This document shows, piece after piece, positions 60,822 through 60,935 of a DNA stretch of 64,000 nucleotides. This DNA is from Pyruvatibacter mobilis (GTDB taxonomy: Bacteria > Pseudomonadota > Alphaproteobacteria > CGMCC-115125). How positions within the stretch are numbered: the first letter of the stretch is position 1; every line of letters begins with the position of its first letter. Below the pieces are notes generated by a model. The model saw only the letters and a list, made by a program, of their open reading frames with translations. It ran no database searches and was not told the origin of the DNA. The DNA is taken from positions 2,211,501 through 2,275,500 of the forward strand of contig NZ_CP051630.1 in the NCBI RefSeq assembly GCF_012848855.1, given 5' to 3'. Both the position numbers and the translations under genes were made by a program.

Positions 60822-60935
60822 TGTCCTGCTTTTTGGCAAGTCACAATGTAATTGCAGGCTTTTTGTCCTGAAAACAGGACAAAAAGCCGGAACACTCAGC
60901 GCAAATCAGCGCGATACCTCGGCAAAACAGGACAA
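60822..60935. promoter_or_regulatory. Putative operator array: TGTCCTG repeats and a 14-bp palindrome
   Basis: The hisS-hisZ interval holds four copies of TGTCCTG or its complement. A perfect inverted repeat, GGCTTTTTGTCCTG (60857-60870), AAAA, CAGGACAAAAAGCC (60875-60888), contains two. Single copies lie at 60822-60828 and at 60928-60934, the latter within AAAACAGGACAA (60924-60935), an exact copy of palindrome sequence. Centre-to-centre distances are 42 and 53 bp, close to four and five helical turns. No T-run follows on the minus strand, so it is not a terminator. It ends at the hisS stop and begins 19 bases from the hisZ start. Confidence 0.75.

Follow-up and report, generated by a model that had tools for sequence, protein, structure and literature searches.

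Does HisZ of Pyruvatibacter mobilis, an ATP phosphoribosyltransferase regulatory subunit that carries an N-terminal helix-turn-helix (HTH), act on the repeated sites lying directly before its own gene? A preliminary description of the window (the whole 64,000-nt stretch of DNA analysed) had placed an operator-like array at the start of the hisZ–hisG unit and named the HTH of HisZ as its natural reader. The array was located in the 132-bp gap between hisS (histidyl-tRNA synthetase; ORF at 60936..62501, minus strand; Pfam tRNA-synt_His plus HGTP_anticodon) and hisZ (59334..60803, minus strand; 489 aa; NCBIfam PRK12295.1-6), hisS lying upstream of hisZ on the same strand. The end of hisZ was overlapped by hisG (ATP phosphoribosyltransferase; ORF at 58339..59337, minus strand; Pfam HisG). 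The start of hisZ was most likely the ATG at 60803. With 398.1 bits against the HisZ equivalog model PRK12295.1-6 (cut-off 384) and the overlapping hisG, the protein was assigned to HisZ.

The gap contained four copies of TGTCCTG/CAGGACA, arranged as two single sites and one perfect palindrome: (i) half-site 1 (TGTCCTG followed by TTTT; 60928..60934, minus strand), which began 1 bp past the hisS stop codon, so that the array spanned the hisS–hisZ gap; (ii) the palindrome GGCTTTTTGTCCTG-AAAA-CAGGACAAAAAGCC with 14-bp arms and a 4-nt loop (60857..60888, unstranded), which contained half-sites 2 (60875-60881) and 3 (60864-60870); and (iii) half-site 4 (60822..60828, minus strand), which read CAGGACA on the coding strand and TGTCCTG on the forward strand, lay 18 bp 5' of the hisZ ATG, and was invariant in four species (see below). 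The perfect 14-bp inverted repeat and the two extra half-sites within 114 bp were thus all recovered where the preliminary description had put them, and so was its 12-base exact copy of palindrome sequence (AAAACAGGACAA at 60924-60935, identical to 60871-60882); its spacings of 42 bp (60822 to 60864) and 53 bp (60875 to 60928) held as start-to-start distances. Beside half-site 4, the block TTGTGACTTGC (60836..60846, minus strand) was invariant in 11 of 11 columns in the four species and may represent the -35 region of the hisZ promoter; a search of the gap for the sigma-70 consensus gave no promoter call.

TGTCCTG occurred four times in 133 bp against nine times in the remaining window, and every other stretch of equal size contained at most one copy. 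Some 7-mer reached four copies in 279 of 20000 random sequences (P ~0.014), so the copy number alone was only moderately unusual and is taken as suggestive. A 14-bp arm was reached by none of 2000 first-order random sequences, the largest arm among them being 11 bp. What carries weight is accordingly the palindrome together with the conservation; it is on the latter that the case rests.

Conservation was assessed between P. mobilis and three congeners, of which one is a Candidatus Phaeomarinobacter MAG, i.e. in four genomes in all from the genus or order. The half-sites were 86% identical over all genome pairs, and the rest of the gap was 50% identical (44% without the invariant TTGTGACTTGC). 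Counted from the hisS stop codon, the half-sites started at +2, +54/55, +65/66, and +106 to +108 in all four genomes; spacings of 52-53 and 41-42 bp were thus kept while the intervening sequence diverged. The half-site 1 region TGTCCTGTTTT was invariant in 9 of 11 columns in the four species, and the palindrome was present but degenerate in the congeners, its second arm being the weakest (57% identity). HisZ was 85% identical among the congeners with the first ~78 residues nearly invariant, which indicates that the HTH is under selection, and the fused HTH-HisZ reading frame was continuous in all four species. The motif was therefore not missing from close relatives that retain the HTH: all three congeners kept the sites together with both spacings. 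Judged by this conservation, the array would qualify as the operator expected of a BirA-like trigger enzyme.

The full palindrome TTGTCCTG-N4-CAGGACAA found no second match in the 64,000-nt window with up to 3 mismatches allowed; its core TGTCCTG-N4-CAGGACA had one exact match in the whole 3.33-Mb genome and no exact match in the three congener genomes. A looser half-site, TGTCCYGWWWW, had 16-30 matches in each genome, a frequency close to that of the reversed pattern used as control. When the contexts of these matches were aligned between genomes (with part of the matches of one congener, G002, included), several conserved sites occurred together nowhere but in the hisZ gap; a few other matches were common to two or three genomes, and the one other match common to all four lay at a terminator-like hairpin. 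That hairpin (CGGGGTGTCC...GGGACACCCCG, followed by a T-run, at G000:C1:2584884 (L105), with counterparts in G001-G003) looks like a terminator in all four genomes. A common dispersed repeat was ruled out by the single exact genome copy together with the lack of a conserved array away from the hisZ gap. The search of the genome for other his genes marked by the palindrome, which the preliminary description had proposed, gave a negative outcome: hisD and hisB, the his genes examined, carried no conserved motif match in the four-genome comparison, and a his regulon marked by the motif was rejected. This pattern looks like local autoregulation and suggests that the array is a candidate private operator of hisZG.

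The N-terminal part of HisZ matched the carph-isopro domain (NCBIfam NF046037) at residues 9-63 (60615..60779, minus strand), scoring 43.2 bits over residues 1-95 and 38.2 bits over the full-length sequence at a curated cut-off of 38, and this was the only carph-isopro match in the P. mobilis genome. Pfam gave no match on this region of HisZ; other carph-isopro fusions gave weak Pfam matches to YdaS, P22 Cro, and HTH_3, and the domain is best described as a putative YdaS/Cro-like HTH. An AlphaFold model built from a 2-sequence alignment displayed five helices but was weak (pLDDT 66), and a Foldseek search with it returned noise and no structural match, so the HTH assignment rests on sequence. 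A literature search on the carph-isopro name found no paper naming the domain. HisZ would in this way present a DNA-binding domain fused to a metabolic protein, as an autoregulatory trigger enzyme does.

A scan of 289 genomes of the class for the carph-isopro domain plus HisZ revealed HTH-HisZ fusions in two further families, f50 and f19 (39 genomes), with a different HTH of SAVSNYR type: (i) f50 had the HTH-HisZ match in 15 of 18 genomes, and all 15 contained in the hisS–hisZ gap two TTCATATnATATGAA palindromes exactly 39 bp apart within a diverged background, the near one lying within ~20-32 bp of the start codon; and (ii) f19 had the match in 24 of 28 genomes, most of the 24 gaps containing arrays of TTCATATAATATGAA-like palindromes plus further TTCAT/ATGAA half-sites, some of which are expected to be chance matches, since these gaps were AT-rich and more variable. 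The other HTH type thus went with another palindrome in the same gap, i.e. HTH type and operator type differed together. In the HisZ tree, at least two changes were needed to account for the fusions, and a single clade was not rejected (p-AU 0.36). The control consisted of 21 HTH-less hisZ loci from the same sample, mostly GC-rich like the Pyruvatibacter genus and unlike f50 and f19, and none of them had a palindrome beyond chance (lowest P 0.12). Most HTH-less hisZ genes with hisS upstream overlapped hisS or started within a few bases of it; the four that followed hisS after gaps of ~110-190 bp had no palindrome either. The expectation that the motif would be conserved only where HisZ has the HTH was thus borne out, the other HTH-HisZ lineages having their own palindrome in the same gap. 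The further proposal that the spacings are whole helical turns, as for cooperative binding on one DNA face, stood for Pyruvatibacter (42 and 52-53 bp) and failed for f50, where 39 bp is off the helical turns, so helical phasing is no general rule.

Site conservation and operators that track the HTH fusions both point to the HTH of HisZ as the probable reader of the array, as the preliminary description had supposed. We consider it likely that the array is the hisZG operator bound by HisZ through its fused HTH, with HTH-HisZ acting as a histidine-sensing autorepressor and BirA-like trigger enzyme. In the enzymes characterised from other species, HisZ contains the histidine pocket, relays inhibition, and makes up the tetrameric core of a HisG–HisZ hetero-octamer (PMC9734150). 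An HTH-HisZ tetramer would carry four HTH domains and so match the four half-sites at fixed spacing, and the two-palindrome design of f50 would fit such a tetramer likewise. With plentiful histidine, HTH-HisZ would bind the array, cover the promoter beside hisZ, and repress hisZG; with scarce histidine, it would release the array. Because the histidine-bound protein would block a promoter within the gap, the always-needed hisS would stay on while hisZG is shut off, and because the same protein would sense histidine and repress hisZG, it would set both activity and synthesis of the first enzyme.

Whether HTH-HisZ instead activates from the array, or represses without sensing histidine as plain control of HisZ amount, bears on the same sites, and the sequence is compatible with either sign of regulation and does not specify the effector. 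Half-sites 1 to 3 lay upstream of the candidate promoter block TTGTGACTTGC, a possible activator position, but half-site 4 at 18 bp and the near palindrome of f50 occupied positions typical of repression, and HisZ is the histidine-binding subunit in the characterised enzymes (PMC9734150), which speaks against control without sensing; we hold either variant to be unlikely. A separate stand-alone transcription factor that binds the array, leaving the HisZ HTH idle or otherwise used, is less probable still. Binding of HisZ to the array is a prediction, and the P. mobilis genome surely contains other regulators; against such a factor, the operators tracked the HTH fusion and varied with HTH type in three lineages, HTH-less hisZ genes were devoid of such operators, and the nearly invariant HTH is evidently under selection. 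HisR, a TrpR-family repressor of histidine genes that is often autoregulated and has a palindromic operator, is a known regulator of this kind, but the array palindrome differed from the proteobacterial HisR motif TGTAnTArnnnnyTnTTACA (PMC9413887), and on this difference in motif membership of a HisR regulon was rejected.

The palindrome might also work as RNA, forming a hairpin that terminates or attenuates transcription from hisS into hisZ, and its 14-bp stem was indeed very stable in P. mobilis (z -6.1). This fold was not common to the congeners, one of which was near random (z -1.6), a U-run was absent, no terminator was called, no Rfam family scored above threshold, and the single half-sites with their fixed spacings would be left unexplained. 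An intrinsic terminator or attenuator, for which a GC-rich stem, a U-run, and a fold present in relatives were sought in combination, was rejected, and an RNA role of any kind seems very improbable.

The autorepressor reading of HTH-HisZ places it beside two known systems. BirA, a ligase, carries its HTH at the N-terminus and represses the genes of its pathway by way of palindromes that differ in sequence and spacing from lineage to lineage (PMC4016012). Like this group II biotin protein ligase, HTH-HisZ has an N-terminal HTH on a metabolic protein and a palindromic candidate operator differing in sequence and spacing between lineages, that of BirA lying upstream of pathway genes. A class II aminoacyl-tRNA-synthetase-like fold is common to HisZ and the catalytic domain of BirA. 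Unlike BirA, however, HisZ has an unrelated HTH type, is a regulatory subunit without catalysis, and appears to target only its own operon; BirA binds as a ligand-induced dimer, whereas a tetramer is expected for HisZ. HisZ was rejected as a group II biotin protein ligase, as Pfam gave tRNA-synt_His only and no biotin ligase catalytic domain; HTH-HisZ would work like BirA and is not a member of the BirA family. With HisR it would share repression of histidine genes at a palindromic operator, but HisR is a small stand-alone TrpR-family protein, whereas the HTH of HisZ belongs to another family and is fused. Control of his genes in this manner would be a mechanism distinct from attenuation, T-boxes, and HisR, and in HisZ a single tetramer, its symmetry corresponding to the four half-sites, would combine feedback on the enzyme with repression of the genes.

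As in other members of the family, the carph-isopro domain of HisZ is N-terminal on a biosynthetic protein. Pfam and NCBIfam placed the domain at the N-terminus of CarA, PyrB, ArgB, CoaBC, GlmU, and a dehydrogenase E1 subunit as well. An HTH-CarA query had matches in every one of the 100 genomes from one order (34 genera), at least 85 of which were matched over the HTH part too within a single match. TGGGAA-N5-TTCCCA (9/12 or better) was present in the 160 bp upstream of HTH-carA at all 30 loci read (L240-L269), the consensus having been derived from three HTH-CarA genomes of which two were among the 30; at least two matches, usually 37-44 bp apart, were found at 27 of these loci (~0.1 expected). 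For single sequences of the ArgB, PyrB, CoaBC, and GlmU fusions, the palindrome statistics mostly fell short of significance, so these fusions are leads only. We lean towards regarding the carph-isopro/YdaS-like HTH as a plug-in module for DNA binding that is in general use among biosynthetic proteins of alphaproteobacteria (HisZ, CarA, and perhaps ArgB, PyrB, CoaBC, and GlmU). Each fusion would sense its own pathway product through the enzyme part and repress its own gene at a private operator, which would typically have four half-sites and change in step with the HTH. The new element is that this domain appears to be linked with a private operator in front of the fused gene; this gives a family with no publication found a testable function and suggests that the conversion of a biosynthetic protein into its own repressor, of which few cases such as BirA are known, is a recurrent alphaproteobacterial route.

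Some further observations were made on these fusions and around hisZ. Palindrome-like sequence lay upstream of several of the PyrB, ArgB, CoaBC, GlmU, and E1 fusions, CoaBC for example being preceded by copies of TTCACA/TGTGAA. In many alphaproteobacteria, the carph-isopro domain was also N-terminal on long proteins that are rich in Ala/Pro and have a probable membrane segment (L074-L103). The hisZ ATG at 60803 had no obvious Shine-Dalgarno sequence nearby, the AGGA of half-site 4 lying ~20 nt upstream (60801-60830), and the hisZ transcript may be leaderless. The hairpin AAAGGGCGGCTC-TTCGCG-GAGCCGCCCTTT (58283-58312), which lies between groEL and hisG where their ends converge, is probably a two-way terminator; hairpins of similar strength were found elsewhere in the window at 24219-24251 and 42783-42816.
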